Shown here one piece after another: positions 10,664-63,016 of a DNA stretch of 64,000 nt. A program made the translations under genes and the position numbers. Origin of the DNA: Polytrichum commune (lineage: Eukaryota; Streptophyta; Polytrichopsida; Polytrichales; Polytrichaceae); contig OX485803.1 in NCBI GenBank assembly GCA_950295325.1, forward strand, positions 33,728,001-33,792,000, written 5' to 3'. A model generated the notes under the pieces. That model was not told the origin of the DNA. It searched no databases and worked only from the letters and a program-made list of their open reading frames with translations. How positions within the stretch are numbered: position 1 is the stretch's first letter; every line of letters starts with the position of its first letter.

Positions 10664-13600
10664 TCAAGCAATCTCTTCTGTACTAGTTGTGGCAGAAAAC
10701 TGGTCTGTTCCATCTTCTAATTCTTTTGCTTTTATCAGACCATCAAGGACTTCGTTTATTTTAAGCCTCTGTTTGCGTTCTAGCTGAACACATCTTGCAG
10801 CAATTTCCATGACCTTTTTCACACTAGCAATATTTTTCCTTGTAGACATTACTGTGGCATCCAAAATTTCAACAGAAATGGCCTCTCCTTTTTCCATCAT
10901 TGAGACCTGTAAACATGCACGAAATATTATCATGTGCAAGCTCCAATATCCACTTGAGAAAGAACTTGTTTACACCCAATCTTCGTATATACATTCAAAT
11001 ATCAAGAGCATGCTACTCTACTACACAAATCACTCATGACAATCTGGGATGTAGAAACATCTTACCGCTCCTTTACCAATTAGGAGTTCATATAGTACCA
11101 CACCAAAGCTGTACACGTCCATCGATGTAGACAATTGATTTGGGTTTTTTTTATAGCTGCAAGACACAAGGTATGACTTGAGTTCACAAGATTGCAATGA
11201 TTTGTTCAATTAGTGTGTCACATTTAATTTCAAATTCTTTTAGCACACATGGCAATTATCTGAAGAAAAAAAAGTAATGACATCAGACATACAAATTTGT
11301 CACACACTTCATATTTCTAGGTAGGCGATTGAAGATTACATGTACATATCCTTAGGAGGTGATTAATGACATGGTGACCATTTCTCATTTTCCTTGAAAT
11401 TTGGCAACCATCTCCTAATTGTGAGGTCATGGCGACTTCAACAAACTCTATTTCATGTTAAAAATTGTGAACACATTTACTAAAATTGTGTACCTAGTTC
11501 TCATAATCTAAAGGTTACAAATTGACACAATTTATTTTCTAAAACATTAATCTACCTTATGCACTGAAAATTCCAACCTTTACTCCCATACTACATCTAA
11601 TGGAGTTGTCGATGCAACTGGATAAGGAAATTATGATCTACAATCCATAATATGGCAATGCTAGAACACATGTGAAAGTAAGACTCAAAGATGACATCTA
11701 AATTGTGGCATCACAACTTGAAACTTTGAAACTTACACAGGGTCCATATATCCTGGCGTTCCAACTGTGTTTGTTTGAGTGTTTGAAGACTGTGTACGTG
11801 TATAATCTGGCCTTAATTTTGTTATTCCAAAGTCTGAAACTTTGGCGTGATCAATTTTCTTGGCCAGTAGTATGTTTGCACTTTTGATGTCACAATGGAT
11901 TAAACTTGGAAAACAATAGAAATGTAGGTACTTCAAACCTGCAAGGTTTTAATACTTCACTATGTCAAATGTACATTCAAAATCACAAGGCATGTATATG
12001 ATGGACAATGACATAAAACCATGTGCTTGGATTCCAAAGATATTCAAGAAGACTTAAATCATAAGGAGTTGTCCAACGGGAGAAGGTAATGTAAAACACT
12101 AATACTGATGAAATGATAATACTATTGTTAATAATAGTAATACTACTACTAATACTACTAATAATAACACTAATTAAATGATACTAATAGTACCAATATT
12201 AATGAAAATTATGATGATAATGATAGTGATAATAATAATAATAAGTTTAGTTACCTTGTGCAACACCAATAGCAATATTTAGGCGGGCCTTCCAGTCAAG
12301 TTTGACACTATGCTCTGTCACATGATGCCCAATCATTTGTCGTTAATATCTTCTTGATGGGTTTTCAAACACACACACACACACACACACACTCTGATGC
12401 CTGAAATTAATACATGTTAGTTGCCTAGGTACACAACTCCCATATTATATGTAGGGGCATTGGGCTTTTGTAAAACTTATATCAAATTATACAAAAATAA
12501 AGGGACCAAAAATTTGGGTGAAGACCAAAATAAATAAAATGAGATGTAGAAAAAGTTGGGTTGCATATTTATTAAAAAAAAAGGTCCACAATTTATATAA
12601 AGAATTGAAACACCTGTTTTCTTTTAACCTATGCCTATGCATAATTCTAAAATATCCACGTGAGTAGTTGCCTCCAATCAAAATTAAAAGTCATTGGCAA
12701 TGAATTATTTATATTGCAAATATTAAAACATTATAATTAAAAAGCCAAGAAAATGGGTAGTTTGCCCTATGGGACCTGCAAAAAAAAAGCTCATATAATT
12801 ACTTTCTAATGCAATTATATGCTTCAAGAAATATTCATTTCCTATGTACAATCACAGTTTTGAATTCCTTGTTAGAAGGGCTACAAAAGTTTCCTACATT
12901 AATACAAATTATATCACTCGAGATTGGACTAAAATATATTATAAGTGATTATAATCAAGGCCACATATCACGGGAGTTGCGTACCCGGGGTTAGCTGATG
13001 CTTCAATGAGTTGTTGTGCATGTACTCATACACAAGGATGAGCCTTGTTTCATCATCGCAATGTCCCACCAAGGAAACCAAATTTTTGTGGCGTATTTCC
13101 GATAGAATATTTACCTACATTGAACCAACATGTTTTTAAGCGTAGGAACATAATTCCTATACACTATCATAGCAATTCCCCTTCAACACGTTGATATCAT
13201 GTAGCAAGTTGCAAGAAACTCATGGAAAAAAAAAAGTGTTTGTGGAGTGAATCTAGATTATGCCTATATTATGATTATTTTGTACAAAAAATACAAGCCT
13301 GAGGGTCTCTAGTGTTAACCTCATTTTTGAATTCATCACTAGAATTATTTGACATCTCTGATTTAAAACATTTGACTGCTACTTCTTGTCCATCCAACTT
13401 CCCATGATATACTTCTGCACTTTGTCCTTCACCAATCTTCCTTGCAAAATTATTTGTGGCCTTTTGGATCACTTTGTAGGAGTAAAGTGTTGCACCTATC
13501 ACAAGAGAATAACACCAAACCAACAATTTACGAACCTTTGTGTTCTTGATAGAGCCAAAATCTTAATAATTCAATGGGAGGTGAGTTAAGCAACCCTAAA

Positions 13601-16600
13601 ATGATCACCAAGATAACCCTGAGTAATCCCCCAAAGTTGTGTTTTTCTTAAATGTGTCATATCTATAAAATGTACATAGCTGGGTAGTGGCTAGATCAAA
13701 TAGTTGTAAGAAATCAATCATTAAATTTTTTTTTTCACATGTTCTGGTTTTCAACCCGTCATGTATTTTTGATCCAATAAACATAGTATGTGATTATAAA
13801 ATCGTTTGTCTCCAACAACCTAATTTGATGTGATTTTCCAGTATGTGGTCTCATTCAAAGACTTCACATTGATACTACATACATACTCACACACTTCCAA
13901 TTTAAGCCCCTAAATCAATAGAATCACCAGATGTCTATCAACACAATGTTATTTCAAGCCTAAGCTTGTGTAAAACTTCAAAAAAAGAAAAAGAATGCAA
14001 AATCATGGGGTATCCGTTGGCTTAAGGGGGTGGGGTTGGGGGTTAAAAAATGGGCCAAGCGTAACTTTCTTCAACTGTACATTCTTCACAATTCACAATT
14101 CATATGCACGGGTGGGAAACATGGGTCCAAGCTAGTTACTTATAGAACACAAAATGTGAGATGTAAGTTAACAGGTTTACCAGGGGCAATGGTGTATTCC
14201 TCTCCAAGAAGAACGTGCCAACGATAGAGCTCAAAAATGGTGAAAGATCCTGTGAGAAGCACACATCCAAACAATATTCCAAGAATGGAGAACAATGGCA
14301 CTCCCCATTTGTTGTGTGGTGGACCTCCAATGATGGGGAGGGCTGTGTATTGCAACAAGGGATTCCCAGGATAGAACCTTGCAAATAACAGAACACAACA
14401 CGGGAAGTTAATGTAGACTTTGTGTGTGTGATTTATGTAGTTTAGAATTTTAGAAGTTGTAATTGACCCATTTTGCATACCAATATGATCAATGTAAGGT
14501 ATGTAGGTATGTAAGGTTATTTAGTTCCTCTTCTTAAGCCCTAAACAATCAATCCTTCACATTCCATTTTCGGGCACTTCCAACACCAATGTTGCAAATC
14601 TCTGCTTTATAGAGAAATAGACTCTGTTTCCTTCAAATCCAACTGTATGAATGTGAACTAGACTACCATATATTTTTGCTTCAAGATGTTCAAATCAATC
14701 GGAATGCAATTTCTAGGTCAGATTGACATGTGAACATGGCCTTCATCCCGTGCGCGCGCTTGCACTGGGGGGGGGAAGAGCAACTAGAGAAAACTCTGAA
14801 TTTTTTCGTTTCATGACCATTTCGGCCATGTCACAACTTTTAGAAAGTTGGCAACCTTGCCATAATATGTTATGTGGATGGCAAATGAGCTACTCCCAAA
14901 AATTTGAGTCTTTTTCAACAAATTTAGATGAAGTCCGTCACCCTCAAAGTTGGAGGGGCCACATGAGGTTATTTTGGGAGATTTCCCCTTTTTCATGGAG
15001 CAAGTAACATATTCACCAAGCTTTTCCAAATCAATCTAGTCAAGTTGTACATAACCGGTACCTTGTCCTAAGGAAAAAAAAAACCCCACCAAAATTGGGC
15101 ATCACAAGTGAAAGAGATTTGGCTCCTAAAACTGGCTCCTAAATTTGGCTCCTACATTTGAGTAGCACATGGAACCGCCTCCGAAATCAAGCAATGCCAA
15201 CCTAACAAAAGAGTCCTACATGCTTGGAGTATGATGATTTTATATGTAAATTTGGTCCACTAGGTAGTGGGCACCACCCTACACTAGTAGATACCTTTCC
15301 ATCCACGTAGATTTTCATCTAGTGGATTACGAACCCCAGTAGAATATTAGGTGATGACTCATTTCGTGTTGCTTGAGGATTTAAAGATTGATTGGACCCA
15401 TACATTTGATTGGTATGTGGTTAAGTGAGAATCAAAGAGAAAACACCATAAAGACACATGCTTAAAAGAAATTGGACAATGCCTCCCAATTGAACTGTGT
15501 ACCCTAAGTCTCCTCATCTAATATCCTCACAAGCTTCATGTGATAAAATTCTGGATGTAGTTCACCAAGAGGACAAGTACCTGAAATTGATTGAGTTTTT
15601 GGAGCGTATTGCGGCAGGGATGACACCTGAAAATTGGTTGTTTTCGATAAATCTGTGCAATCCAGATTTGAAAACCCATTGCTCTCATGGCCAAATCAAT
15701 AACTTTATCAGTCAACCTCAAAAACCCAGTAGTCTACACAAATTGATGTATTTAGATTAACCTAAATGTAGCATTACAGAAGGCACTCATCAAAAGGATT
15801 GGGTTAGTTAACACTCACAACTCCTCTAAGCCTAATGTCGTAGCCAACCAATCCGGGAGAGCACCTGAGAGTACGTTATCTTGCAAATGCCTGCCGATCA
15901 CAATCACAAACAATTTCAGTTAGTGATGCATAGAATTAGCTCACATTTAATAATAAGTTAAGAAACTTTTAATTGTATCAATACTTTGGCATTTTTAAGG
16001 AAACCAATCTAAGATTCAAGGGAATCAACACATTTGGCGCATCCTTGACCTAGTGGGAATTCCACAAAAAGATAATCAGTCTTGAGGAGATTTGTTGGAA
16101 AACCTGTTGAGCTTACATTGCATGTTCATCTACTTCTCCAAATGCCACTTTCTGCTTGACGGTACTAAAACTATCAATTGTTTGATTTAGAAGGCTAATT
16201 AGGGTTCAGATTCTAGTTTCTACCACAATTGAAAATTGAGACGAAAAATCAAAAGGCAACCTGGTTGGGACTCTCCAACTTACAATCTCTTCAAGTTTGC
16301 CAGACTACTTAGATTGGGTAATGATCCCAATAATGCATTGTTGTCCAATAGCCTGCACGTTAAAGGGGCAAATGGAATTCCATGCGATTCATGACATCAA
16401 TTAAGATAACATTAGTATCAGGCTAATCATGTAGACTACATAGAACCAATGTTATGTACATGTCTTCATTATATCTCAATTACATGGACTGTATCATTTC
16501 AAGGTGCACAAAAGCGGGTACGAGAACTTTACAATCACATTCATTGTGCGTGTTTAGGACTAAGATCTTACAAGTCTGTGATACTCCAAAGGTCAGCAAA

Positions 16601-19600
16601 GTTGGGAGAAATAGTTCCAATCAGATTGTATCCTGATAGGTTCCTAATGATGGGCACCATTAAAAAAAACAGCATCAGTTCAATCACAGTACGTGGAGAA
16701 ATATAGAATTTACATTGACACAATACCAGCTGAGATATTTGATAACGTTATGAATATGTAATTCACACTGATAAGGTGATGCAACAAGTGTCATCCAGAT
16801 TGAAGGTAAATTAGTAGTTGAAAGAAAACCTACACTGCAGTAATTTCGGGTGGTTTATTCACATCTATTGGAGTACATGTGACCCATGCATGAGGCACCG
16901 GAACGCACGGATCCCCAGTCCACTCATTCAAGTTCATATGGGATTTGATGGCATCAATTGCGTATGCTGCAAAGATCAGTGTTTACAAAATTGTATCAAA
17001 TATTAGGCCCATGTTAGGTGCAACACTGTCAGAATTCATGCACAAAGAAAGTAATTTAAAAGAATCTGTAAGCACATGGATAGAAAACGACGAGTGCATA
17101 TTACTATCATGTTTTGCATTAATTTACAACTTGTATGTCTTCTTGATGTGCGCTTAAGCTCCTGTATATACATCACTGATAATCAAGCAAAACCTATGCT
17201 TAGAAGTTAGAATATGTACCATCCCGATCGATTGTCTTCAAATTTGAAGTCCATGTGAACTCAAGGAACTCCAGTGCATTCAGCGAGGGACCCAGTGTAG
17301 AATTCTGGCCCCGGTAGAGAGGAATGGGCTCCCACAATTGAAAGACAAAAGGGTTAGAAATGAGGCGAGATGCGACAAATGGTTGACTAGTATTCGTATC
17401 GTTCAAAGGATTTATGTATTGATCGAAGGAAGAGGGCAACTGGATATAGAATTCTCGTGAGGTCGTATTCGCATTTGGATCCAATTCCGCAAAGTATAAA
17501 ATTATGTATGCAGTTATCCAGTTAGTCTGTTGCGATGAAATGAATGGATCGATTGTGCCAAACATACTTTGGATCGTCATATTGCCACTAGTGGTGAGAG
17601 CGTTTTGCAACATCACAGTTGGGATGGTCACGTCACTCAAATTGTTAACAACCGTTTGGGTTGCAGACAGAAGTGTTAACGGCGAAGTGGCTGACAAATA
17701 GGTGGTATTCAACCCTTCAGTTGACCACAATCGGTTGTATGGATCTATAGGTAGTCTGCAAATTATCCAACATGCAATAGATTAGAGCTCCCTAGGGGGG
17801 CAACTCCCTTGTAGGGAGGGATATGAATCACGTGCAATCAAGAGATACAAAATAATGGGCATATGAATGGGATATTCCATAAATTTGATGAAATTTCCCC
17901 GCATATATTTATTAGATTCTCAAAAAAAAGTTTTAACACCCTATATCAATAGATTTTATTTCTTTGGTTTTTAGTCCACCGTATATTTTTTTGCACATAG
18001 TTCCAAAAATCTTACAAAGAGTGACCTCCTTGGATTGGAGCTAAATGAAAGGGAAAAGACAACTGGTTAAGAGTATGGACATCTGCACAAATTTGTATTC
18101 GTTGACAAAAAATTGATTTTGTGAAGTGGATAATAACCTTCCAAACGACACGAGTACCTTTACACTGGAGAATGTGATGCACGTACCTTCCAGTGCTGGT
18201 TCCACCAAAATTCAGTCTGTGTCTCACGCGTATCATCTGCCTGCTACTAATTTGATGAAAGAGGGCATACACTGGTCCAGGGCGCAAATATATTGCAGAA
18301 ATGAATGGGGTGCCCAATTGCAAAGGCAATTGTGTAAGGCAGACATAAGTGAAGTTATTTGGAGGCTGAATGGAGAATTCAAGTTGATCAAATGTTGCGC
18401 CGGTAGCGTCAGAGGTGACACTGGCCAGTATGGTTCCATCTATGGCCAATCCGAAGCTTGGAGGTGATGCAGTGTTATCATAGGACGCCCATAAGAAACT
18501 TGCTGTCAGAAGGTATGTGACATTTATTGTCACCGGCAGCGTGTAGCAATTCTTTGCACGGGTATCGTTGAAAAACCTCAGGGTGCTCAATTCAGGGAAG
18601 TCTTGCCACAAAGTTTTGGCCGTTGGGATGTTTGCAACATTCTCCCCGGTAGATATAAACCCAGAATCAGGGACCCAAGTTACCCCAGTAATTGGGTCCA
18701 CGTAACTTGCCATGGCACCACAATCAATGTAAAGAGATCCTGCCAAGAAAGATAGCAGCAAAACATAAGGACACTTTTCAGCTCTAGGGCACTTGTGCCT
18801 AAATTGAACACAACAATAAGCTAATTTGAACACCCATGTTTGAGCGGTATGTGGTTAGGTGTGGTTTTAAGACCTGGCACTGAGAAGGCATCATGTACTC
18901 AATATTGGTCCATGTGCTCAATATATTTTAACCATTCTAGGCTCAATAGTCAACTTGATTGGAGAACTGATATGGCCACTTAATGAGCAGGAGAATCTTC
19001 ATTTTGATGATCAATAAATTACCCATGTGAACTTCAAAAATCATAAGGCAAATGGCCACAAGCATGGTTTGGATTTGTAATCGCCTTGCAGTAATTGTGC
19101 GTTTCATATCCCACAAGGGCATGTCTACCTTACACCCACTTCTCTCAGGATATTAAACAGGCAATTAGTACGACAAGATGGCCAGCAAAATCAAATAGAG
19201 GCTGTATCCATTTCCTCACAATCTGTGAAGTTCAATTGTCTATACCTTCATGGTCACAAAAAGAAAATTTTCTTTCTTTGTAAGTGATCATCCAGGTCCT
19301 CTCAATTATGTTGAATGTTGAAACTGGAATATTTAACAAATGCTGAGCACATAATCCAATCTCTTGTACATAAGAACACATGTTTCTGGTGTCTGTTCTT
19401 AGATCTATGCCTAATCACACATCACTCAAATGATCTTTTAGGTGGCTGATTAAGATAAGTAGGTAAACGAATTAGGCTGACCTTATTGAGTGTTTGTGTT
19501 GGACATTCTGCTGTGGAAGTTGACATACTTTATCAAGTGTACAACCATAACATTCATGAATACGTATGCTGCAAAAAGATATATTCTGAATCCAATTGAC

Positions 19601-24499: not shown

Positions 24500-27400
24500 T
24501 CATTCTTCATTGTCAGAAACTATTTCACATGAAGCACGGTTAATACGAGAACTACTAGCCATATCAGGGGACGGACGATGAGTTGACAAAGAAGCGATGC
24601 CCAAGGATATAGGAGATGCAGTTGACTCTTCTCCATCAGCAACCAGTTTTGCAAATTCGAGTTGCTTAATCACTTCGGTCATTTCTGGCCGATCCTTGCG
24701 CTCATTCTGTACACATTGGATAGCTATTCCCAACACTATCTTTACACTTTCAGCAGGTGGCCGTGATTTTGCAAGCGTCGGATCCAGAATGGCTTCATCT
24801 AAATTCTCTTCCCAAAGAGCCTCGCGAACCTGTGTACATGTAATATGAGATAGACAAGCTTAGTACCTTTAAGGTATGTGGGCCTTGCATGGTCGCTCAA
24901 GTTCTTAATTGAGGGGACGCACACACACACGAGTGGAAGGTATATATACGAGTGGATGTTCTATGACAAGGATTCTAATCAGGAATGAACATGACACAAA
25001 CATGTTCTACAATGAGATTGGACAATGTGCTCAAAATATAATGCACCATTCTAGGTTTAATAGTCAACACAATTGGGACAGTCTATGTGATTATTTAAAG
25101 AGAAAGTATTCTTCAATTTGAACTTTTGTAATCTTGCATTTCTCCTCAAACTTGGAAACTTGAAATGACGAGTTATTTGTGATTCATAACTAATATTCAA
25201 TTAAGGAAAATATTGATCCAATCAAATCAGATCTAACCTGATCCAAACAATCAAAATTGTTTGTGGAGTTGAAAGTGCCCACAATGCACCCACATACCTT
25301 AGTTGTTAGATGTTGGGATTATTCTCTCTCATTGATCTACATGTATCTAATATATAAAGCTTGAAACTCCCATGATTTTATAAGATACACACCAAACTTT
25401 TTCAAACACCTACTTTTGGGTATAATACGATTGATATTGACATATAACAAACACTAGCAACATTATTTTGAGGCTCAATGAGACTGCTCATTGGTTGGGA
25501 TAGCCAAAAAGTCAAAGCTCAACTGGTACTCAACACTACCCGCTTTGTGCACACCTATTTAATAAGAAGCTTGCATATTTGCTATTTGAATATTTCTCAA
25601 AAGTTGTCATGTGGATCTCATTCTTTAAGAATTGGATTCGTACAAGACTTTCTAATCACTGCATAATTTCCAGAATTTATTGCACATCAGAAGAGACCAA
25701 ACCTCCTGGAAGTAACTGTAGTAGGCTCGTCCATCTTAAGACTGTTAACATATACATTGACATTTGATGAGTCATTATAGGTCAGGATCTGTGAAAAAAG
25801 TGTGAAAATGAAACAGAACTGGAAAGGGGAATCTTACTGTTTCACGTAGTATCCAGTTCCTGAGATCATATTGTTGGTGTCCAAAATCTTTTGGCTGTTT
25901 ACCGGTTATCAGTTCTAGAAGGACAAGGCCAAAGCCAAAGACATCACCCTCTTTCGACCATCTGGAATCCCTTGCATGCCTGCATAATTCCAAAGCTTAG
26001 AGGTATTAGAGTTGACAGATCAATCAATGTAAGTCAATTTTATGTTCATTCTAGGTGAGGTATAACATATGACCTAATTTGCACATAAAGTGGGTTCGTA
26101 GATTTGGGTTCATGATGGTTTGGATGATAAGGAATCAGGATTTACACAATGTGAATCATACTTTTAAGGAATCTTGATCTTGAATCAAATAACGGCCTAG
26201 GGGAAGACATACGCTGGGTCAAGATATTGAGTTGTATCTTCGCCATAAGGATGCGCTGCACCTCCACCAACATCCTGAATAGAATGTGGATTTTCTTCTG
26301 TGATTTCTCTTGATAACTCAAAGTTGGTTACTTTGGCAATTTCATTCGCAGTGATGTTTTTGGTTGCCTCTTGAGCCGAAAGATCGCTGACTAAGATGTT
26401 GGCACTTCTCACATCACAGTGGATTATGGGGAGTTTGCATTGTGTATGAAGGTAGTTCAAACCTGCTAGATATCAATTCACTTCTTAGCAAATAACAAAT
26501 TTATATAGCCACAATCCATCCACCCACCCAATGTTAGAATTTACAGTGAGAAAATGCTATGTATATCATGATGAGCTTAAACCAAAAAGTCTAGATCACA
26601 TCACTATAGCTGGAAACTGAAGTGGTCAGCTCAGTTTACCTTGTGATGTATTAAGAGCAATTTGAAGTCGCGTTAGCCAATTTAGATTTGGATTTTTCTC
26701 TGTTGATAGAAAGACCACCAAGAGTATAAAAAAAATGACTGGACTGGGAATACACTACACTAAATATGATATTTAGTGTGACTTACTATTTGGAATTACG
26801 CAATGCTATATCTATTTACTGTACATCTCATATTTTATCAACAAATTGATAGTTTGAACATTATAGAACATTGACAACGTTACTTGGTAAAAAAAAGTTT
26901 CTAATAGTAAAAAGATGTAGCACCGTGTAAATCCAAATAGTAAGTCACACTAAATATCATATTTGGTATATAAAATTAGTGGATTTAATGTCATATCCAT
27001 TAGAAAACTTTGCGACATTCTAAGTTTCCACTAAATGATATTCGTGACATTAATGTGCTCAAAACACAGTCAAAACGCATGAGTGCTAGGCATTGAAGTG
27101 AAGACTTGAAACTACTTATCACTGTAGTCTTAGGGGTCATTCACACCAACTTGACCAATACACTACTTTACTTTTATATTTATTGTCCAAGAGTTATTGC
27201 AAATCTGCTCAAAGTGTCAAAGCAATACCTTTGAGATAGTAGTCAAGAGAGCGGTTTTGGAAAAACTCCTCATAAATCAGTACAAGCATTCCATTTCCAT
27301 CATAGGAATAGCCTTTTAAGGAGACCAAACTTTTGTGATGCACCCTTGAATATATAGAAACCTACCACATCAAGCACATTAAGTGAATGAGCATCCCTCA

Positions 27401-30400
27401 ACCTCAACACTTCCAATTGTATATCTACATCACAGTCAAAAATCTTGTTGAAGTGTACTTTTATTGCTAAGCTCCTTATTGAACCACCTCTAGACGAGGA
27501 ATCAAAAGCCATTGCAACAAGAATCATGGGCGGATACCATACTCCTCAATGTTGAATCAAAGTCATCCCAGTAATTACTCTATATGTGCTAGGTTGTCTA
27601 GTATGCCCATTTAGACAAATAGGTTAACATATCCCAAGAGGGGGGGGGGACATTTCATTGGAAACCTAAATGACATGCGTGGGTATGAATCAAAAACCCA
27701 TGTATATGAGATATTTATAGAGAAAACAAATGTGTACATCCTAATGGTAGGCTTTAAAATAGGCTCAAGCATTTATTCTAAGATTTTTAATTTAATTTGA
27801 TAAATGCCTCCACTACATACACAAAATTTAAATCACAAAATAAATGACCCTTTACAACATATACAGAACCCTACAAGAATGGATGGGGTAGTCATTGGGG
27901 ACCATTGCCATATGACAATAAGGCATGAAAACATACATATTAATGAAACTAGAACATCTATTGTCAATTTTCCTAAACCTTAAAGCCCCTTTTGTACATC
28001 TACCTTTAGTTCGAAATTCTGAATATCCTTTTTTAATGTATGCACTAAAGAAAAACAACACCTCTCCCTTATGTATACTATGTACACTAATGCCTCAAAT
28101 GCTACCCCTTTCCACACTCACATCAATTCATACATGTTATAAAGAGTCAACCCCCCTAGATTTCATAAAGACTCATGTTTGACGCAATATTACCAATTAA
28201 AAATAAAAAATCATCAATCAAATGCGATGACAATATCTATAAGTATACCAAGTCTTTATTTTAAACCTATGGAGAGCTAAAAATAAAAGCATGATAACTA
28301 TTGAAAGGAGTGTCAAAGATTGTCGAAAAGTGTAACACGTGACACTACTTGGGTCCACCTTATCGTGGTTGGACTCTTGTCTCTCCCCCGCCGCCCCCCC
28401 CCCCCCCCCCCCCAAAAAAAAAAAAAACAAAAAAAAAACAACAACAATGTTACGGTAAGTCCTCTTGAACTAGGAAAATCATGGACATTGCCAAAAAAAC
28501 TCTTAATGAAGGTTGCATGAAGTACCCACGACATGATGGAATTGGACAAACATTATCATGTATACCAACAAAACGAGGGTCCACGATTGCATGGGAAAAA
28601 TCACCTCATTTTTGAGCTTCTGGTTGTGAACTGGGTCATTGGCAGATTGCCTTCGGACAATCACTTTGGTTCCACAAACTTGTGCTTCTTCCAGGTTTTC
28701 AGTTCTGTTTATTTCTTCAGTATGCCCTCGGGCGGTGGTCTTCTCAGGCTCCATGGTTCCTATATAGACTTGTTCAAATTGACCCACTTCCTTCAAATCT
28801 GCATTTCTAATTATCTCTTCGACTTTTTGGAATCTCCATTCTTTTGTGCCTACAATGAACACATGGCTCACTCAGTTAATAATTTATAACATACATATGT
28901 CACAGTGCTCAAGTGGCCGACTTACTGATTGAAAAATCATTTTGCAAATCAATTACAGACACATTATTTTGACAACGCAAAGATCTTTCTGACTTACAGC
29001 ATGTAGTATTTGGGAAAGCAGCAATTTTATTGATATATTTTGGACAAGGCTGGAACCTCGTGATTCTAGTGACTTCCGTTGCCAACATTTATAGATATCC
29101 TGGAGTATATATGTATACAATATTTTTCATCACCTTTTCTGAGTTGAGGTTGTTGATGTACTTTCCAATAAAGGATGCTCAAGTAACTGACTTCTAGAAC
29201 CAACACCACACCTAGTAAAACTAGGATGCCACCCAATATGATGTTCATAACTGTAGCTGTTGTTGGTGGTGGCTTGAGTGTAATATTTCTCAATAATGTG
29301 TTCCCTGGAGAATACCTAAGGCCAGTCCAACATCCTAGTTTTAGAATCCGGATCAAGTGGTGCACTGTTTAGAGACGTCAGTGACCTACGAAAACTTACA
29401 ATTCATGAACATGTTTTAAGTTAACAAACAAAACAATGTCGTAGAATTTTGGAAATAACTGTTTTGGTAATTTGGAGAGGGTTAAAACCAATTCTGTACC
29501 TGATGTTCATGTCGGTTCTTGCAAGAAGATTTTCAGGAATATCTCCACTGAAATTATTGTTCTCCATAAATCTGTTTGAAAATCATAAGTTGTCCATGCA
29601 AATGGTGAGTTACTCATGACCTCATTGTCCAAATTTTTGAATCAAACAGATTGAAATGTAACTAGTATATTAATGAGGATCAACAGAAATCACCAATAAG
29701 TTTATGAGTTGTCAATCGCCAAGTTGCTCTAATGTTGAACATATATATTTAGGTTACAAAACGTAAGACTCTGGAAGAGTATGTTTGTGATCTCAAGCAC
29801 TAAGAAGAGTATGTAGTTAGAGGAGAAACATTATGTTGTCACATGATTGCTCACAGTTCAGTCAAGTGCGTCAGTGTTGCCAACCAATCCGGTAGAGGCC
29901 CACTCAGCATGTTGTCTTGCAAATGCCTGAATATTTACAAAATATTAGAATTAAGCTGCTCAACTATCACCATGAAGACATGCATTGTAATAATTGACAT
30001 TTCTACCACAATGTAGTAGCAGACTGACCACTGCCTACTCAAGTATATTTCAAACAAGTTAATTTGAATCTCTCCAACACCTTAATTAACGTGAACCAAT
30101 GGCACTAATAGAACAGTTTGTGATTCGATAACTCACAATACTTTCAGTTTTGTTAGCACACTCAGATCAGGCATTGATCCAGTCAATGAATTGTTGTCAA
30201 GAAATCTGCACATCATATCAAATATCATTGCACCTCATTTAATCATCCACTTTCTTTAGTACACACATTTTAATCAATCTTTTGAATACCCACACGTAGT
30301 GTGCATCATGTTTCATGATTATATTCATTTTTTGGACCATGAACCTGAACTTTGATGTGGAATAACTAAAAAAGACATCAGAAAGGTTCCATAAATTACA

Positions 30401-33294
30401 AGCTTGTGAGATCCAGAAGGTTAGCAAAGCTGGAGGAGATTGTGCCACCAACTTGGTACCCTGACAAGTCCCTGCCAAGAGTCAGCATAAGTATTAGGGT
30501 TCAATATATAGTATACTTATTAAGGAAAGATCATCGCTTTAAGGATACTTGTATGGGCTTTGTATTCAACTCATGATGAATCTCACAAAGACATTCAGTT
30601 CCTGGGCAAAACTTTTGAAGAACTCTATCTGTTCTGAGGTAAACTACCAATCGTTTTACAACAATAAATTGATCAAATTTTCACTGCAATTAAAAATGGC
30701 TCAAGGCAGTTGGAACCCACACAGCAACAATCACAGGGTGACTTGATATATCTGACGTGCCACAAGTCACCCAAGGATGTGGGCTTGGAAGACACGGATC
30801 ACCAGTCCATACAGACAGACTCGATGTGTTAACCTTGATTGCATCAATGGCAAGCCCTGCAGTAATTAGAAAACAATCCATAGCTAAGTTACATATAGAT
30901 TTCAAGTGACCTCTATACAAATATTAGGTCACCACAACTTCCTGCTGCTCCAAAATTCAGACTATCATAGGTCACGCTGTTCATGAGACATAAAGGATCG
31001 AATTTGAAATGGTGAATGTGAACTCACCATCCCTGTCTAAAGTTTTGACAGCTGTAGGGGCTGTGATTGCATAAATCTCCAGGGCATTTACAAGGGGACC
31101 CAGCTGAGAAGTCAAACTTGGGTACAAATTTATGGTACTCGAAACCGGAAATCCAAAACCAGCCCATGTGGAATTAGTAGCAGAGAATAGCCCACCAGCT
31201 AAGATATAAATATCAACATAGAAATCTATATAGCCTGGCACATGTACGTAGAATCCTCGGGAGCCTATATTCGTTAATGTTGGATCCAGCTCTGCAAAGT
31301 AGAGAACCATGTATGCAAGGATGCCATTGGGTCCATCATTCAAAAACCTAATTGTCATGTTGCCATTTGTGGTGAAGGCAGTTTGAAATAGCCCCTCAGG
31401 AGTGTGAGCCGCATAGCTCCAAAGGTTGATTGTTTGGTTTGCAGTCAATTTTTGTAAAGGAGCAGTACAAAGCAAATAAGAGGTATTCAACCCTTCATTT
31501 GACCACCATCTGTCATACGTATCACGGTTGGGATTTCTGCAAACATAAGTAAGCAAAGATCAATTTAGCATGAATCAACAATATTGCTCCATCCAATGTT
31601 TTCACATAGGTAGGTCCCTAGCTACTACAGAGGCTCCAGCTCAGGGCCACTGGATGCTTACAATCTAGAACTGACCTATCTGAATGCAAAGTACACTTTA
31701 CTATGGTGTGATTTGGATATCTAAGTGAATGCATGGTCAATAATCAACACAAATTAGGGTATCAAAGAACCTACCCGTGGGTATCAATATTGTAATATCA
31801 GTCAAATATTGATCTTTGGTGGGTATATCAAGCTGAGAGAATCTCTGTATATCTGAGTTGTTATTTTGTCAATACTGTTCTTAACCATATTGATACTAAG
31901 GTGATTTCATCCAGGTATGCAGGTTCTTACATGGTATATAGACCCAAATGAGATCAAAACCCTAAAACACTGTCCAATACCCATATCCTGCTGGACCTGT
32001 CAAAAAATGTGAAATACTCATAATAGATACCCGAATGGTATGAAACAAAAGACGATTTTAGTGATGTAACACTGGTGTGTACTTATTTGAAATTTGTTTT
32101 ATTAAACTTACCTTTGAGTAGTGTTTCCACCAAAACTTAGCCTGTGTTGCAGCATCATAAATTGTCCTGCGCTCAAGTAGTCACTGAACGAAGGATACTC
32201 AGGTCCGGGCCGCAAGGATATAGCAGAAATGAAAGGGTTCCCATACTCAGATAAAGATGCATTTTGTGTGAGACATAGAAAAATAATACTGTTTTGTGAT
32301 CTCACTGTGAATTCAGGCTTGTCAAATGTTGATCCAGTGGGGTCAACAGTAATGTTGGCAACTATGGTTCCATCTATGGCCATCGAGAACCTTGGGGGAC
32401 TTGGAGCATTGTCGTAGGATGCATCATACAAGAAAGAGGCCCGAAGAAGGTACGTTTGGTTTGGCATCACAGGCAAACTATAGCAGTTCTTTGCTTGACT
32501 ATCATTGAAGAATCTCAAGGTTCTAAGCTCAGGATAATTATCCAAAATTGTTGTCTGTGGACTAGAAATATTTGCATAATTTACCCCAGTGGTTATGAAT
32601 GCTGCATCAGGAAGCCATGTCACTCCTGTGTAGTTGTCACTCCTATTGGCTGTTGCACCACAATCAATGTAAATCCATCCTGGCAAATAATCTGGCAGAT
32701 GAGATCACACACGGTTGAAAAATCATTTTCTTGTCAGTCGAGGCAATTAATTTCCTTCTCCAACAAGTGGAAGCTCTCAACATTAGAGAAAAATTGGACT
32801 CAACACAGATATACAAAAGAAAGATCATCGTCATCATCATCATGTGATTTTCTACATCTGTTTCACCAACAAATTAAAGGATTCCACTTCAAGTAGGCAA
32901 GCATCTTGAACCTCTGGTGCATGTAGTTCTCAAATGCAGGTAAAACAATAATTCTGAATATCTAATTGAATCTTTCAATACTAATACATAAACCTCTTGA
33001 ATTAACTATGATCATATGGTCCATAACCAAGACGTGACTTTGATCTTATAAATAATGTAGTGCAAACCAAGAGTTGCACTGAGTATGAGTCTCATCTATA
33101 GTCCTTGTAAATAGATGTAGTCTTGAAAAGTGATTCATGGAGACTCTTGCAACTCTACAGATTTATCATAATTTATGCAAAGTGAAGTGATCATAACCTG
33201 GCACCGCCCACACTCCTGGAACAATGCAGAGAGTGTACAGGTGACTCAGAAATGCAATAAAGATCACTCCTGCAACTCCCACACATCTTTCCAT
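24500..33294 (-). CDS. Malectin-like LRR receptor (pseudo)kinase 2
   Basis: A 978-residue paralogue of the neighbouring receptor with the same 15-exon plan: 33294-33198, 32679-32112, 31536-31028, 30856-30721, 30471-30400, 30205-30137, 29926-29855, 29571-29500, 29315-29134, 28849-28605, 27361-27229, 26699-26640, 26462-26213, 25979-25838 and 24829-24500. Every phase closes with no stop. Order: signal peptide (VIFIAFLSHLYTLCIVPG), malectin-like domain starting WIYIDCG, WTGDPCLP, four LRR exons (72, 69, 72, 72 nt), membrane segment (ILGGILVLLGVVLVL), kinase-like domain. The glycine loop is degenerate (EVGQFEQV), the VAIK lysine is replaced (VIVRR, about residue 658), the catalytic loop reads HCDVRSAN and DFG reads NFE (about 785). 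So it probably cannot catalyse phosphotransfer and may act as a scaffold or co-receptor (inference). The C-terminal tail is longer than in paralogue 1. Confidence 0.92.
26757..26968. mobile_element. MITE with palindromic ends, copy A (in receptor 2 intron)
   Basis: Each end carries ACTAAATATGATATTTAGT or a close variant, itself a near-palindrome. The roughly 210-bp element is AT-rich and lies in the intron between exons 27361-27229 and 26699-26640. Other copies are at 36624, 50872 and 51547. Confidence 0.8.
28382..28442. repeat. Poly(C)/poly(A) run in receptor 2 intron
   Basis: A run of some 20 C followed by A-rich sequence, inside the intron between exons 28849-28605 and 27361-27229. Exact lengths may reflect sequencing limits. 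Confidence 0.8.
31714..32078. repeat. Dispersed non-coding repeat, copy 2
   Basis: Inverted copy of the 10093-10430 repeat. It fills over half of the intron between exons 32679-32112 and 31536-31028 of receptor 2. The matching intron of receptor 1 (17756-18186) lacks it. Confidence 0.75.
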
Positions 33295-55999: not shown

Positions 56000-58900
56000 A
56001 TGCAGCAGCAGCAGCAAGGAGGGAACCCGGGGTCACCCCGGTTTCCGAACCCTAATACTCCCAATGCTCCGCCACAGTTTTCGTCTTATGGAACTCCCGG
56101 TAAGTTGTGTTTTGATGTGATCCTCGTGCACGAGGCTTGTGTACACATTACTAATGACGCTCTTCATCTTCCTAAAGCAATCGTGTCGGAGATAGTGTGA
56201 ATTTTGGCTCGTGTTTTGATTGTCTTAATAGTGTGTTGTTGAGCTGGTCATGGTGTTCATATGTTTAATGCAATCGTGCTGAATATATGTACTTATAGAG
56301 AGAATTCTGAAAGATTGAGGCCCTAGTGATGATGTACCTGTTTCTGAAATTCGAGGAGATTTATTTTTATTTTGTCATGTGAAGTTAACGTGTTTTAATT
56401 TTCAATGTGTTGTTCGATTTTTATTTTCTTCTTTCTTTCGGAAAGGTTCCATGCAGAGACCCGGACCACCACCATCATGGCAAGGCCGTCCACCAGGTGC
56501 TCAATTTCGACCACATGTTAATCCAGGTCAACCTCCTTCTGGAGGGGTTCCTGGAACTTTAGCAGATGCGCTGCAAAACCCAATTTCTCCACTTCCAGCT
56601 GGTCCTCCATCATCAAGTTCCTACTTCCGACCAGGTGTAAACAGACCATCAGCTCCCCCTAGTGGGTTTCAGCCTTCTCAATCTATGCCACCAATTTCCG
56701 CTCCTCCTCCATTATTTTCTCGTCCCCCACCTCCCATGGCAGGTCCCCCAGGGGGCGGCTTTCACCCTCAATCTTTCTCTACACCTAGTGCATCACCAAT
56801 GGGAATGGGGGCTCCTCCTCCTGCACAAACAATTCCTCACGGGAGTGTTCCGTTTGTTCCGTCAAGTGCACAACCTCCTCATGTAACAGGATCAATGCCT
56901 CCCCCTCAAGGTCCTGGTGGATATCCTCCCTCTGCCCGATACCCTGCTATGTCGGGTCCCCCTAGTTTTTCTGTGCCACCACTATCTGGACCTCCTCCTC
57001 AAAACACGAGGCCGTTGTTCAACAATCCCTCGCAGATTGCTCAATCTCAAGGTCCTCAATTTGGTGGCCCACCTCATCAACAGCAACATCAGTTTAATCC
57101 TGTACAGCAGCAATCAACATCTCCATATGATTTGTCAACTCCGTTATTGAGTTCTCAACCTCAACCTCCTCAGTTCTCGTCAGTGAATCCTCCTAAGTTT
57201 GGAGGCCCCCCATCAAGTCAAGGTTTCTATAGTGGACCTCCACCCTCGGCAATGCCTGGACAGTATGGAGATGGGCAGGGTGGAGCTTTTGCACCCCCAC
57301 CACCTCCCCTAGGTTCTTATGGTGCAACCTTTCAGCAACAAGCACAAGGACTGGTTGAAGATTTTCAATCTCTTTCACTGGTCCCATTACCTGGGTCAGT
57401 GGACAGTACTGTGGACCCAGGTACACTTCCAAGACCACGGGATGATGCAGAGGACATGAATGCAACAGGGAGCCAAAATTGTCATTCTCGATACCTGCGT
57501 CTTACAACTAATGCCATGCCAAATGCTCATTCATTAGTGGCCCGCTGGCATTTACCTCTGGGAGCTGTAGCTCACCCCCTTGCAGAAGCTCCTCCTGGGG
57601 TATGTTATCCAAATTTTAAGGACCTACATTGTGATCATTCACAAATTTTTAGAGCCAGTTCTATACTGACAATCTCTCTAAGTCAAGATTGTTCAGCTAG
57701 TGTTTCTGCACTCAGCTGAGCAGCAATTTTGACATGGGCAATAACCAATGCTGAACTTTTGATTTGATGTCAGTTAAAAGTTTATCACTGTGAATGTGGC
57801 TTTAGTTTGTGCACTGATGATAATAACCTTCTGTAGACCCTGGCTTCAACAATTTGAGATATACAGACAATTGAATTGTAAACCTTGGGCACGTGTGTAT
57901 TGCAGGAGGAGGTTCCAGTGGTTAACTTTGTGGGTACAAGTATCGTGAGGTGTCGACGGTGTCGCACTTATATCAATCCCTATGTCACATTTACTGACGG
58001 TGGACGGCGTTGGCGATGCAATGTGTGTGTTTTGTTGAATGAAGGTGGGTTCCACCCAAGTGAATACTACACACAGAATTGCATGCTTTCTTGCTTGTGG
58101 AATTGGTGAATGCTCTCCCCCTGCTCTAAATTTTGGAAATTGTTGTGCAGTTCCTGTGGAGTACTTCTGTCCTTTGGATGAGAATGGACGACGACGAGAT
58201 GCAGATGAGAGGCCAGAGCTTTCATGTGGAAGTGTTGAGTTTGTGGCTCCCACTGAGTACATGGTGCGGCCACCTATGCCGCCTGTCTACTTCTTTCTGA
58301 TCGATGTCTCCGTATCAGCTGTGAAGTCTGGGATGCTTAAGGTACATAATACTTCCCCCTGGGATTTGTCTCTTGAGATATTCATTATCGGCGCAACATA
58401 TAATGAATAGTAGGTTATGAATCGTGTTCCCTGGGATCTTGAATCAGGATCGGACTTAGGTTGGTTAATGCAGAAGATTTGGATTGGGAGAGGTGGGACT
58501 CAATGTGAATACATTTTGGATAGGATGGAGGTGAGAATAGTGGTTGATTTTTTTACATTCACCATTTGGACCAAAACCATGGGCACTGTGTACAAACAGT
58601 TGTAGTGCAGGATGCCTTGCTTTGGATTATTATGTCAAGGCTTGACTTGAACATGTTCTTCAATTGCAGCAGGCAGAGATTCCTTCGAGTTGTTCAGAGA
58701 ACTATAATGGTTTCTCTTTGGGGGTCATTGTTAGTAAAACTGTCTGCCTTGTCATTGCAGGTTGCTGTTGAAACCATCAAGGACACACTTGACAAGTTGC
58801 CTGGCTATCCTAGAACACAAATTGGATTTGTCACCTTTGACAGCACGCTGCACTTTTATAATCTTAAGGTTGGCTCCTTGCAATTAATCTTTCCTCTACA

Positions 58901-61900
58901 TTTTAGTTGTATTCTTTAGGTGGTACTGCCTCTTTATTTTGCACAGTGATATCTTGGAACTAAAGAGCTAAACGCTGAATAGTGGTCAGTGCATCAGTGA
59001 TTTATTTTTCAGTGATTGTTTCCTATGGTCAGTCTCTTATGGATGCTAAAATATTTTTGTGTTGATGTTGTTGACCTGATCTAATTTACTTCATCTTCTG
59101 CACTTGAATCACTTTCTTGCAAATTAGTTCAGGTGCATTATTGGTATAATTGAACCATGTCTCACCTCGAAATCAAGTTTTGGTCTGACAAAGACTTAAA
59201 TGTTGTCCAAATGACAATGGCATAATATGACCTATTTGAAAGGTATGCACATCCATTACATCTGGAATATATATATATTAATGTACTTCAGTGCAAATCT
59301 CAAGGCTAAGGAGTTGTTTGCCATCGTACGGTGGGTGTTTCAGTCTTCCTTGACGCAACCTCAAATGATGGTGGTTGCGGACCTTGAAGACCCATTTTTA
59401 CCACTACCGGATGATTTGTTGGTGAATTTGTCGGAGTCGAGGGCTGTTGTGGAAGCGCTACTTGACAGCCTTCCTTCTATGTTTGAGAATAATCTCAATA
59501 TCGAATCTGCTCTTGGACCTGCCCTGAAGGCCACTTTCATGATAATGGTATGAATCAAATCTTCCTTCCAATCAGTTGAATAGGTTTTTGAGCAACTTTC
59601 TCTATATACACACATTGCCATCAATTGCTTTGCATATTGAATAATAACATTGTTGTGGAATACGTTGGCATGATCATGCAGAGTCAACTTGGAGGAAAAT
59701 TGCTTGTGTTTCAAAGTACCTTGCCTTCTCTAGGTATTGGACGGCTGAAGCTACGAGGTGATGACCCTCGCATTTATGGGACTGAAAAAGAGCACCAGCT
59801 TCGTGTTACAGAAGAACAATTCTACAAACACATGGCTGCTGATTTTTCCAAGTATCAAATTGGTGTCAACATCTATGCCTTCGCTGAAAGATACACTGAT
59901 CTTGCTTCCCTAGGTAAGCCTTTAGGTTGGGCAGTCCTTTATTATATTCATTCTCTCAAGGTACTCAGGTGAAGGGTCGGCATAGGGTTTGTTTTGTTTT
60001 GGAGGCTGTACAAATTTGGTGCTGGTATATTGACATATTTGTTGTTCTGATCACATGCTATCGTTCATGGTATTTGGAAACAAATTATAGGAGTACTTTA
60101 ATGTATACTGAAGTAGACTAAACAATATCTAATTACCGACCTCCCCTTGACAGGCACCCTAGCAAAATATACAGGAGGGCAGGTGCTTTATTATCCTGCT
60201 TTCCAGGCGCACCTGCATGGGGAAAAGTTTAGCTATGAACTTGCACGTGACCTCTCTAGAGAAACAGCATGGGAGGCTGTCATGCGGATACGTTGTGGAA
60301 AAGGTACTGTGCTATGTGAATGAGCTTACTTTCATATTGGTTATAATAACACTTCTATGGAAGGACCTCTGGTAGATGCAGAAATTTCTTGAGAATGTAG
60401 TGCCTCAATGCTCATTTCATACATTCTAGTTCCTTGAGAATGCCATTTCATTAATTTGTGTGGCAGCTACCTCATCAGCAGAAATATATGCTTTTGACAT
60501 GAAAGTTCTATTAGCTCGTCAATCTCTAATGTTGACCATTTTTTGGTTCAAGGTTATTCATGCAGTGAATGTACTCCACTTGTATTGTCTGCTTTTCAAG
60601 TAGTTTGTTAGAATCTTGTCTGAGATGAGTGTAGTGTTGGCTTCCAGGAATCCGATTTTCATCATTTCATGGACATTTCATGTTACGAAGTTCAGACCTC
60701 ATGGGCCTGCCAGCAGTTGACTGTGACAAGTCCTTTGCTATGCAGCTAGTCCTTGAAGACACTCTGTTGACCACACAGACTGTCTATTTCCAAGTTGCTC
60801 TCCTGTATCCATCTTTCTTGATTTTTATTGGTTTATTGTTTGATTTTAACTATTTAAAATGTATATCTGTTTGTTGTAGCTATATGAGTCAATGAAAGGT
60901 GTTGTGCCTTGTACGTTGTCTAGCATATCCTACAAGTGTTTCACGTCTCTTCAGGGGTAGACATTGCTGTGATTGCTTGTTGAGGTAGTCTATAGTGTGG
61001 AATAGACCTAGTATATTCTATTATAGACTTACTATGACCCCTCCCACTCACTATTGCACCCTTGTGGTTGTGGAGTCTTACACCATCACACACCAACCTT
61101 TGCAGGAATTCTACTTCCTACCTGAAAGGTTGGAAGGTGTGTAGTAGCTAAGGAAATTTCCTTCGAACCTGTTGTGATAGGATGGGTGCGCATTTTATGC
61201 AGTGAAACCCCTGGGAAGCAGGCACTAGAGGTAGACCACTTTTGGACATTGAGGCCCATTCAATATGACACAATTAACTATGCTGCCTGATTTTTGGATC
61301 TGAATGGGTTTCCAGTGAAGGTCCTTGAGGAAGAGACTGTTAGTATAGATAGATTCTCTTCAGTAGCAAAGCAGTGTCAATTTGTTTTCTCCTTTACCAT
61401 TTGTTCCTTTGACTTGGATTCACAGATACACATCATCGACGGGTGAGCGTCGGATAAGAGTCCATACAATGGCCACTCCTGTGGTGACTGATCTTTCAGA
61501 AATGTATAGGTCAGCTGATGTAGGTGCCATTGTTAGTCTCATGAGCAGGCTTGGTAAGTTCTCTCTTCAATCCCATTTACATGTTCTGAAGCACTAGTTT
61601 GGCCTGAGCACAGCCACTGAACTGGTAGACATTCTGAGTCATGTGCTTGAAAAGTCTTCGGGGTTTCATATCTTAATTATCTGCCTCCAAAAGTGTTAAT
61701 GTATCAAAAACACCTGAATCCTTGAGCTTTTGCCACTGATGTGGATATTAATGTCGGGCATTCACAAATACTTTTCACCATTGTTGCAAATAGCTGTTGA
61801 GAAGACTCTGCAGTCTAAGCTGGAAGACGCTCGTCAAGCCACTCAACAAAGGTTGATTCGGAGTTTGCGGGAGTACCGTAACATGTTTGCGGTTCAACAT

Positions 61901-63016
61901 CGAACCTCCAACAGACTAATATTCCCTGGGAGTTTGGAGCTCCTTCCACTCTACACTCTTGCCATCAATAAGAATCTGGCATTGCGAGGTGGCTATGGAG
62001 ATTGCACAGCTGATGACAGGTCTGCAATGGGATTTGAAATCATGACAATGTCTGTGTCACGATTACTCAAGCTACTGTACCCTGCCCTAGTGCGACTAGA
62101 TGAGTACCTCATTCAGGTTTGGCTCTTTTCTTGCAACCTCTTCTACCAGGTGTAATGGTTGAAGGAACACTTTTGTGACATGGTTTGATATTATTCCTAC
62201 ATGCTAGCTCCACAGCACACCCTTCGGGCTTATTATTTACATTTTGGTTCTTTTAAGCTCAACGACCAGGTGTAAGGTTTTTTCTTGATCTCTCAGATGC
62301 AGCATATTTGCTAGCTTGTGGTTCATTGCATTTTCTGGTGGATATTGTTGTTTACAGGGAAGGAAAGCAGATGGCCCAGCAGGATTGCCAGCACCCCTGG
62401 CACTGACATCAGAGAAACTGGACCCACGGGGAGCTTATATGTTGAATGATGGCTTGCGATTTATTTTGTGGCTGGGGAAAGTTCTACCGGCAGATTTTGT
62501 GAAGCAAGTACTTGGGCCTGAGGCTGCATACAATGCTGATTCCTCCAAGGTAGGTCAATATTTCACTAGACTTTATTTGCTTTTAGACCATAGAAATGTT
62601 TAAGCATTAGTGCAGATCTAAAAGGATATTGTAAGTGAGAATGTTGTTAGCAATGCCCAACCAGTCCTAGTCAACATATGGATAGTCAGCTGTTAAGACT
62701 TGCTACATTGACATAGTATCTTCATGCTATGCTTTAGTAAGTGTTCATGCCTGAATTTTGTTGTCTGGCTTTTCCACAGATTGCTATAGTTGAACATGAT
62801 AATGAAGTCTCAAGGCGCTTGATGTCAGCCTTACAAATCCTCAGGGAACGTAATCCAGCTGTGTATCAGCTCTGTACAGCAGTGAGACAGGGAGAGCAAC
62901 CCAGGGAAGGAAATCTTGTGCTCCTCCATTTACTTGAGGACCGAATTGCAGGACAAAGTGGCTATGCTGACTTTGTAGTCCAGACTTATCGACAGGTTTC
63001 ACAGAAAACGTCATAG
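56000..63016 (+). CDS. SEC24: COPII coat protein SEC24
   Basis: The cargo-binding subunit of the COPII inner coat, which works with SEC23 and SAR1 at ER exit sites. Thirteen exons (56000-56099, 56446-57599, 57906-58044, 58151-58341, 58761-58868, 59344-59547, 59682-59913, 60154-60303, 60648-60804, 61426-61553, 61794-62116, 62358-62549, 62780-63016) join in phase to 1,104 residues. Residues 1 to about 360 are a Pro/Gln/Gly-rich disordered tail. Then come the zinc finger (VRCRRC and RCNVC), the trunk ([25 protein letters not shown]), the beta-barrel and helical parts, and a gelsolin-like domain ([18 protein letters not shown]). It ends [15 protein letters not shown] plus a short tail. Introns are all GT-AG. 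The order and motifs match plant SEC24A-type proteins, and no defect is seen. Confidence 0.96.

Follow-up and report, generated by a model that had tools for sequence, protein, structure and literature searches.

The 64,000-nucleotide stretch of Polytrichum commune DNA analysed here (the window) carries on its minus strand a receptor gene, gene 2, that runs from an ATG at 33294 to a TGA ending at 24500, with a related receptor gene, gene 1, as its neighbor. The initial annotation had read gene 2 as intact, with 15 exons in phase and no stop, and an independent re-derivation returned exactly the same coordinates and exon count: all 14 introns are GT-AG, the phases close, and the 982-residue product has no internal stop. 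A wrong gene model is ruled out by these canonical splice sites and phases together with the matching exon layout of the neighbor. From its sequence, gene 2 is predicted to encode a receptor pseudokinase of the SYMRK-like kind, with a malectin-like domain and leucine-rich repeats (LRRs). Its parts are as follows, in window positions.

33198..33294 (-), exon 1: signal peptide, from hydrophobic windows
32112..32691 (-), exon 2: malectin-like domain, first part (PF12819, 156.5 bits)
31028..31536 (-), exon 3: malectin-like domain, second part, from gene model and Pfam
30721..30856 (-), exon 4: end of malectin region and GDPC motif (30803..30792), from gene model and motif
30400..30471 (-), exon 5: leucine-rich repeat, from gene model and Pfam
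30137..30205 (-), exon 6: leucine-rich repeat, from gene model and Pfam
29855..29926 (-), exon 7: leucine-rich repeat, from gene model and Pfam
29500..29571 (-), exon 8: leucine-rich repeat, from gene model and Pfam
29134..29315 (-), exon 9: transmembrane helix (about 29254..29165) and juxtamembrane region, from hydrophobicity
28605..28849 (-), exon 10: kinase N-lobe, from gene model and alignments
within 28790..28758 (-), exon 10: degenerate glycine loop, from alignment
28745..28674 (-), exon 10: 24-residue insert, from alignment
28664..28653 (-), exon 10: VIVR in place of VAIK, from alignment
28607..28605 (-), exon 10: alphaC Glu, kept, from alignment
27229..27361 (-), exon 11: end of alphaC to hinge region, from gene model, alignment and small kinase profile
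26640..26699 (-), exon 12: start of alphaE, from gene model, alignment and small kinase profile
26213..26462 (-), exon 13: subdomain VIa Tyr (26454..26452), HCDVRSAN (26421..26398), NFE (26325..26317) and YLDPA, from alignment
25838..25979 (-), exon 14: alphaF (GDVFGFG) and KDFGHQQ, which has the letters DFG and is not the DFG motif, from alignment
24500..24829 (-), exon 15: end of C-lobe (DRPEM), C-terminal tail and stop, from gene model and alignment

Intron 10 also contains a long run of C followed by a run of A, at 28390-28440.

The protein begins with a signal peptide (residues 4-31, with hydrophobic windows starting at residues 4-13), and the malectin-like domain is placed between this and the LRRs (PF12819, 156.5 bits, residues 41-382). 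A GDPC motif lies at residues 414-417, where the malectin-like region ends, the LRR matches fall within residues 438-524, and the one further hydrophobic stretch, at residues 552-588, is the single transmembrane helix. The same order, with signal peptide, malectin-like domain, GDPC, LRRs, transmembrane helix, and a kinase of the receptor-like kinase (RLK) family, is found in SYMRK and in LRR-RLK subgroup I, for example IOS1, and GDPC at the end of the malectin-like domain is described as defining the SYMRK-like layout (PMC5380761). A Pfam check proposed in the initial annotation recovers the kinase fold, with PF07714 at 91.8 bits (cut-off 23.1) and PF00069 at 77.2 bits (cut-off 31.7). The six NCBIfam matches are all to generic kinase or LRR models and lie far below their cut-offs. 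For both kinases the top-scoring PDB sequence is SymRK, with 108.3 bits for gene 2 and 169.6 bits for gene 1, and FERONIA, also described as having a malectin-like ectodomain (PMC10868138), is the second-best protein match of the gene 2 kinase. Among the 60 of 129 PDB matches listed for the gene 2 ectodomain, all have their best alignment in residues 394-545, the LRR part, and none is FERONIA.

Kinase motifs were placed by phmmer alignments to SymRK and FERONIA chains, plus a four-sequence alignment that included gene 1. These alignments put the two losses first noted, of the VAIK lysine and the DFG aspartate, where they had been claimed: the VAIK position reads VIVR, with the first R of VIVRR on the lysine, and the DFG position reads NFE, in which Asp has become Asn and Gly has become Glu and only the Phe is kept. 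The glycine loop had rightly been called degenerate, as EVGQFE stands where FERONIA has GVGGFG, preserving 1 of 3 glycines and the Phe. In VAIK, the alanine, which lines the adenine site, is replaced by isoleucine. The codon at the lysine position is CGA, at least 2 base changes from either lysine codon, and that of the isoleucine is ATT, 2 changes from any alanine codon; a single base error therefore cannot account for the motif losses. The 24-residue insert lies between strands 2 and 3 of the domain, the DFG region is flanked by two further inserts of 8 residues each, and the P+1/APE stretch reads DTTQYLDPA, with DTTQY where gene 1 has GTPGY; the APE glutamate is Ala in gene 2 and Val in gene 1.

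The catalytic loop is better preserved than had been thought. The initial annotation credited HCDVRSAN with keeping only the Asp and Asn; both are indeed kept, but so is the His, and the Cys is common to HCDIKSAN of gene 1, leaving Lys to Arg as the real loss. Because HCD is common to genes 1 and 2, it is best taken as a marker of a non-RD lineage, and the missing arginine is no sign of decay. Gene 2 also keeps the alphaC Glu, the subdomain VIa Tyr, the alphaF Asp and the subdomain XI Arg. Loss of the VAIK Lys, the HRD Asp or the DFG Asp is the criterion for a pseudokinase, and here the ATP-binding Lys and the Mg-binding DFG Asp are lost and the HRD Asp is kept, so that the changes fall on positions that handle Mg-ATP. 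SymRK chains, by comparison, have the HRD arginine where genes 1 and 2 have HCD, and gene 2 additionally lacks the Lys and DFG Asp. At the VAIK-lysine and DFG-Asp positions, the R and N of gene 2 recur in two chains, 7xdv of FERONIA and 8peh of SYMRK, which are presumably engineered kinase-dead forms; the FERONIA chain 9ubi, unlike gene 2, has the Lys and DFG. A small kinase profile made from gene 1, SymRK and FERONIA matches each of exons 11-15 and finds no match in exon 10 alone at E up to 5.

The neighboring gene supplies the closest comparison.

10664..18739 (-), gene 1: neighboring paralogue, 14 exons modelled (first exon left out), tandem comparison gene

Gene 1 has the same domain layout as gene 2, the same exon layout for matching domains, and canonical VAVK and SDFG motifs. 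The malectin-like domains of the two genes score almost equally (158.6 bits in gene 1 versus 156.5 in gene 2), whereas PF07714 gives 146.3 versus 91.8 bits, which suggests that the kinase region of gene 2 has drifted and its ectodomain has not. Identity between the genes is 0.50 in the malectin-like domain and 0.58 in the LRRs. Counted on the alignment, and with an uncertain gene model, the stretch between GKGA and ILD is shorter in gene 1 by about 18 residues than in gene 2, and by 14 than in SymRK. In this part of gene 1 (11066-10906, minus strand), the intron contains an out-of-frame NKFFLKWILELA at about 10985-10930 that resembles YDLRNWILRET of gene 2 and is perhaps a relic. At 19936 on the minus strand, about 1.1 kb upstream of the first modelled exon, MVLLLLLLFSLWIPCF is a candidate signal-peptide exon for gene 1. 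No third receptor copy was found in the window by tblastn at E up to 0.01 beyond the exons of genes 1 and 2.

Constraint was estimated with pairwise codon models between gene 1 and gene 2, which average over the branches of both genes, and inserts and unalignable stretches were left out of all omega figures. By part, omega is 0.247 in the malectin-like domain, 0.228 in the LRRs, 0.233 in the transmembrane/juxtamembrane exon and 0.331 in the kinase, at synonymous divergences (dS) of 1.76, 1.67, 4.08 and 2.03, respectively; for the whole ectodomain it is 0.241 (bootstrap 0.175-0.323, 60 replicates). The kinase value is insensitive to alignment. A hand-anchored alignment covering 255 of the 386 codons from the kinase to the end gave 0.331, and MAFFT, with 279 of 386, gave 0.326 (bootstrap 0.203-0.470; likelihood-ratio test, LRT, against 1 = 32.8). 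The hand-anchored version placed a needless two-residue gap in the glycine loop that the MAFFT version does not have, and the latter was relied on. Exons 11-15 have an omega of 0.30 (0.304; LRT against 1 = 32.8), near the ectodomain value. Exon 10 is unstable when fitted alone, with an omega of 1.54 (hand-anchored) or 0.00 (MAFFT) and bootstrap limits that are useless or wide; when its synonymous scale is shared with exons 11-15, a fit in which synonymous rates are taken as equal in all exons and the transition ratio is set at 1.5, omega is 0.46-0.47 (profile 0.33-0.70; LRT against 1 = 9.6). The ATP-binding exon is thus relaxed more than the rest, and on average nothing is evolving freely.

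The open reading frame is informative in a second way. In simulations of neutral substitution over the 386 codons from exon 10 to the end, 5.75% of sequences stayed free of stops at 0.06 substitutions per site, 1.2% at 0.10, and 0 of 2,000 at 0.20. With 386 stop-free codons, the region is therefore unlikely to have drifted neutrally by more than about 0.06-0.10 substitutions per site, and any gene-wide decay would be recent on the scale of a dS near 2. The earlier proposal that selection keeps a non-catalytic signalling role finds partial support in purifying selection averaged over the divergence from gene 1 (kinase omega 0.33), and its signalling half is still conjecture. An alignment of the malectin exons compared with bacterial, archaeal and viral collections gave pattern matches (21 stretches in genome contigs, 11 in viral contigs) and no confirmed relative, a comparison that is uninformative on plants.

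Taken together, we think it probable, with some reserve, that gene 2 is a maintained receptor that does not act by catalysis. As the residues for using ATP are lost, its product probably acts in signalling by binding or directing partner proteins, with the kinase domain most likely serving as a docking or allosteric surface. The protein would sit in the plasma membrane, its malectin-LRR ectodomain would bind a ligand or a partner receptor, and its kinase domain, judged by the residue losses, would be unable to phosphorylate. The C-lobe mainly, with what remains of a core of alphaC, VIa Tyr and regulatory spine, may be retained as the surface on which an active partner kinase docks or is allosterically controlled; that partner could belong to the SERK/BAK1-like co-receptors or to the cytoplasmic receptor-like kinases. 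Under such a non-catalytic mode, positive allosteric or scaffold action appears somewhat more likely than inhibition. Every functional step in this scheme is our inference; a parallel would be the non-RD receptor EFR, which can signal independently of its kinase activity. EFR, of the LRR-XIIa group, shares the HCD loop and the VIa Tyr with gene 2 (a D849N primer reads H-C before the mutated D codon), and its kinase activity is reported to be dispensable for signalling: kinase-dead EFR still activates BAK1, and the VIa Tyr is required (PMC11259431). Receptors closer to gene 2 in layout are also described in terms of complex formation. IOS1, a receptor of the malectin-LRR type, associates with both FLS2 and BAK1 and helps them form a complex, and the same source names FERONIA as a putative scaffold for FLS2/BAK1 (PMC10317173). 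SYMRK is cleaved at GDPC and is discussed as SERK-like (PMC5380761).

Several observations count against a maintained docking receptor. The ectodomain of EFR consists of LRRs only and is not matched by gene 2, where a malectin-like domain is present. EFR is itself an active kinase, whereas gene 2 has lost catalytic residues outright, and kinase-dead FLS2 gave a diminished burst in the same study, so kinase independence is not general (PMC11259431). Synonymous sites are saturated (dS about 2) and omega averages two genes, which makes the omega values only rough. Freedom from stops before exon 15 could be maintained simply because the downstream or tail sequence is needed, and does not prove the importance of each upstream residue. 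Exon 10 is more relaxed than exons 11-15 (two omegas versus one, LRT 4.37). It is identical to gene 1 at only 14 of 57 aligned residues, with the 24-residue insert uncounted, and it departs from 9 of the 15 columns common to gene 1, SymRK and FERONIA, compared with departures at 20 of 67 in the other kinase exons (Fisher p 0.038). Given the relaxation of exon 10, the kinase domain may be slowly relaxing rather than forming an ordered switch.

The main rival to the docking interpretation is a BIR2-like inhibitor, in which gene 2 is a negative regulator or decoy whose dead kinase occupies a co-receptor, or a heteromer with gene 1, and blocks signalling. We regard this as unlikely, though it is to be taken seriously. 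Ectodomains of the BIR2 type are not known to include a malectin-like domain, and the large ectodomain of gene 2 does. BIR ectodomains are also described as short (PMC10317173), which does not fit a large malectin-LRR region. BIR2 is nevertheless a plant receptor pseudokinase with an altered P-loop that competes for BAK1 (PMC10868138, PMC10317173), and the gene 1 ectodomain, at the identities given above, is related to that of gene 2 and could bind similar ligands.

It is also improbable, in our judgment, that gene 2 is relaxing toward decay, its kinase function recently lost and only the ectodomain, if anything, still in use. A kinase score well under that of gene 1 beside equal ectodomain scores would fit this history, as would the greater relaxation of exon 10 and an excess of changes unique to gene 2. 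Gene-2-unique changes outnumber gene-1-unique changes by 44 to 28 with SymRK (p 0.076; the SymRK row is chain 8peh, whose DFG Asp is N, which counts one change against gene 1) and by 46 to 30 with FERONIA (p 0.085), both missing the 5% level. Within exon 10 the ratios are 14:5 and 14:6, and in exons 11-15 they are 30:23 and 32:24, with SymRK and FERONIA, respectively. Departures from shared columns overall, 29 of 82 in gene 2 versus 14 of 67 in gene 1, miss the 5% level as well (p 0.069). On the other side, the six kinase exons carry no stop or frameshift, and omega is below 1 both in exons 11-15 and, at 0.47, in exon 10. Length differences between the two proteins are whole codons, a consequence of both frames staying open.

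That gene 2 encodes an atypical kinase, catalytically competent or at least ATP-binding despite its losses, is very doubtful: the HRD Asp, catalytic-loop Asn and alphaC Glu are retained and ILK1 is described as a plant pseudokinase with confirmed activity (PMC9403797), but the Lys and DFG Asp are both gone, along with 2 of 3 loop glycines, and Ile replaces the VAIK Ala.

Least credible of all is that a splice variant restores the catalytic lysine by using part of intron 10 as an alternative exon. The initial annotation had raised a splice form that brings back the Lys and DFG, and none is seen in the three unspliced sense frames of gene 2, where the letters DFG occur only at 25888 in exon 14 (a DFG interrupted by an intron would escape this search). 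As a kinase motif, the DFG at 25888 was rejected, since the alignment puts it off the motif position. An IAVK at 30690, a second match to [VIL]A[VIL]K in the sense frames of the gene, was set aside as well; it belongs to intron 4, well away from the kinase exons. The intron 10 stretch, SIRSLAIKVHF...LNVLDVVGFY (27482..27354, minus strand, the last 8 bases in exon 11), is open and beta3-alphaC-like, with Lys-Glu-Gly spacing as in FERONIA and SymRK. Its score of 9.5 ranks 2 of 14,512 windows in six frames and was not reached in any of 400 dinucleotide-shuffled versions of the intron with 62 bases of exon 11 attached, and joining it to exon 11 raises PF07714 from 11.1 to 15.0 bits (+3.9). However, the stretch was chosen post hoc, an unrelated stretch of the window scores more (12.0), and the native stretch of gene 2 scores 61 and adds 9.1 bits. 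It has no Pfam kinase match, and its 47-residue piece has no PDB match at E up to 10. An 81-residue version matched only histone H5 (E 0.17) and NBR1 chains in the PDB, and the histone resemblance was treated as chance. Inspection by eye, which was not exhaustive, turned up no splice acceptor able to bring in both the lysine and a glycine loop, and DFG would remain NFE. The LAIK stretch is a weak lead and probably due to chance.

Returning to gene 2 as a non-catalytic receptor, the tandem arrangement raises the further idea that genes 1 and 2 form a complementary heteromer, one contributing a working kinase face and the other a working docking face. The idea draws on gene 1 having the catalytic residues with a modelled C-lobe that is shorter between the alphaF region and the ILD motif, and on gene 2 having a full, constrained C-lobe beside a more relaxed ATP-binding half that has lost catalysis, and we hold the pairing to be highly speculative. 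If true, it would mean that labor is divided between the kinase halves of neighboring receptors.

Other features of the window lie apart from the two receptors. On the minus strand, 42187-38054 contains TIR_2 (58.2 bits), a P-loop-like GISGTGKTT in a piece with no Pfam match, and LRR_4 (53.4 bits), and has the appearance of a resistance-type gene of the TIR-NBS-LRR class next to the receptors. On the plus strand, a Sec23/Sec24 helical domain (61718-62152, 74.7 bits) and a proline-rich open frame at 56319-57716, which has no Pfam match, together look like a SEC24 gene running off the window. A piece of a Copia-type retroelement is present at 1460-1753 on the plus strand (Pol_BBD, 41.8 bits).

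Receptor pseudokinases are common in plants, and gene 2 is one more example. In one count, 168 of 1,005 predicted Arabidopsis kinases are pseudokinases (PMC6907349), and structures have been reported for DRIK1 and BIR2 (PMC7158045). BIR2, DRIK1, CRN, GHR1, PAN1/2 and MDIS1 are, like gene 2, membrane receptors whose kinase is predicted or shown to be inactive, and BIR2 and DRIK1 share with it an altered P-loop (PMC10868138, PMC7158045). Compared by description rather than by sequence, none of these is presented in the sources drawn on as a malectin-LRR receptor. A limited search of the open literature found no malectin-LRR pseudokinase described, though kinome tables may record one. Gene 2 adds to this group a malectin-LRR, SYMRK-like case in a non-RD pair, with its canonical tandem paralogue adjacent. 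If the domain is truly held while its ATP-binding exon relaxes, the pair would offer a natural comparison of what a kinase domain needs in the absence of catalysis.

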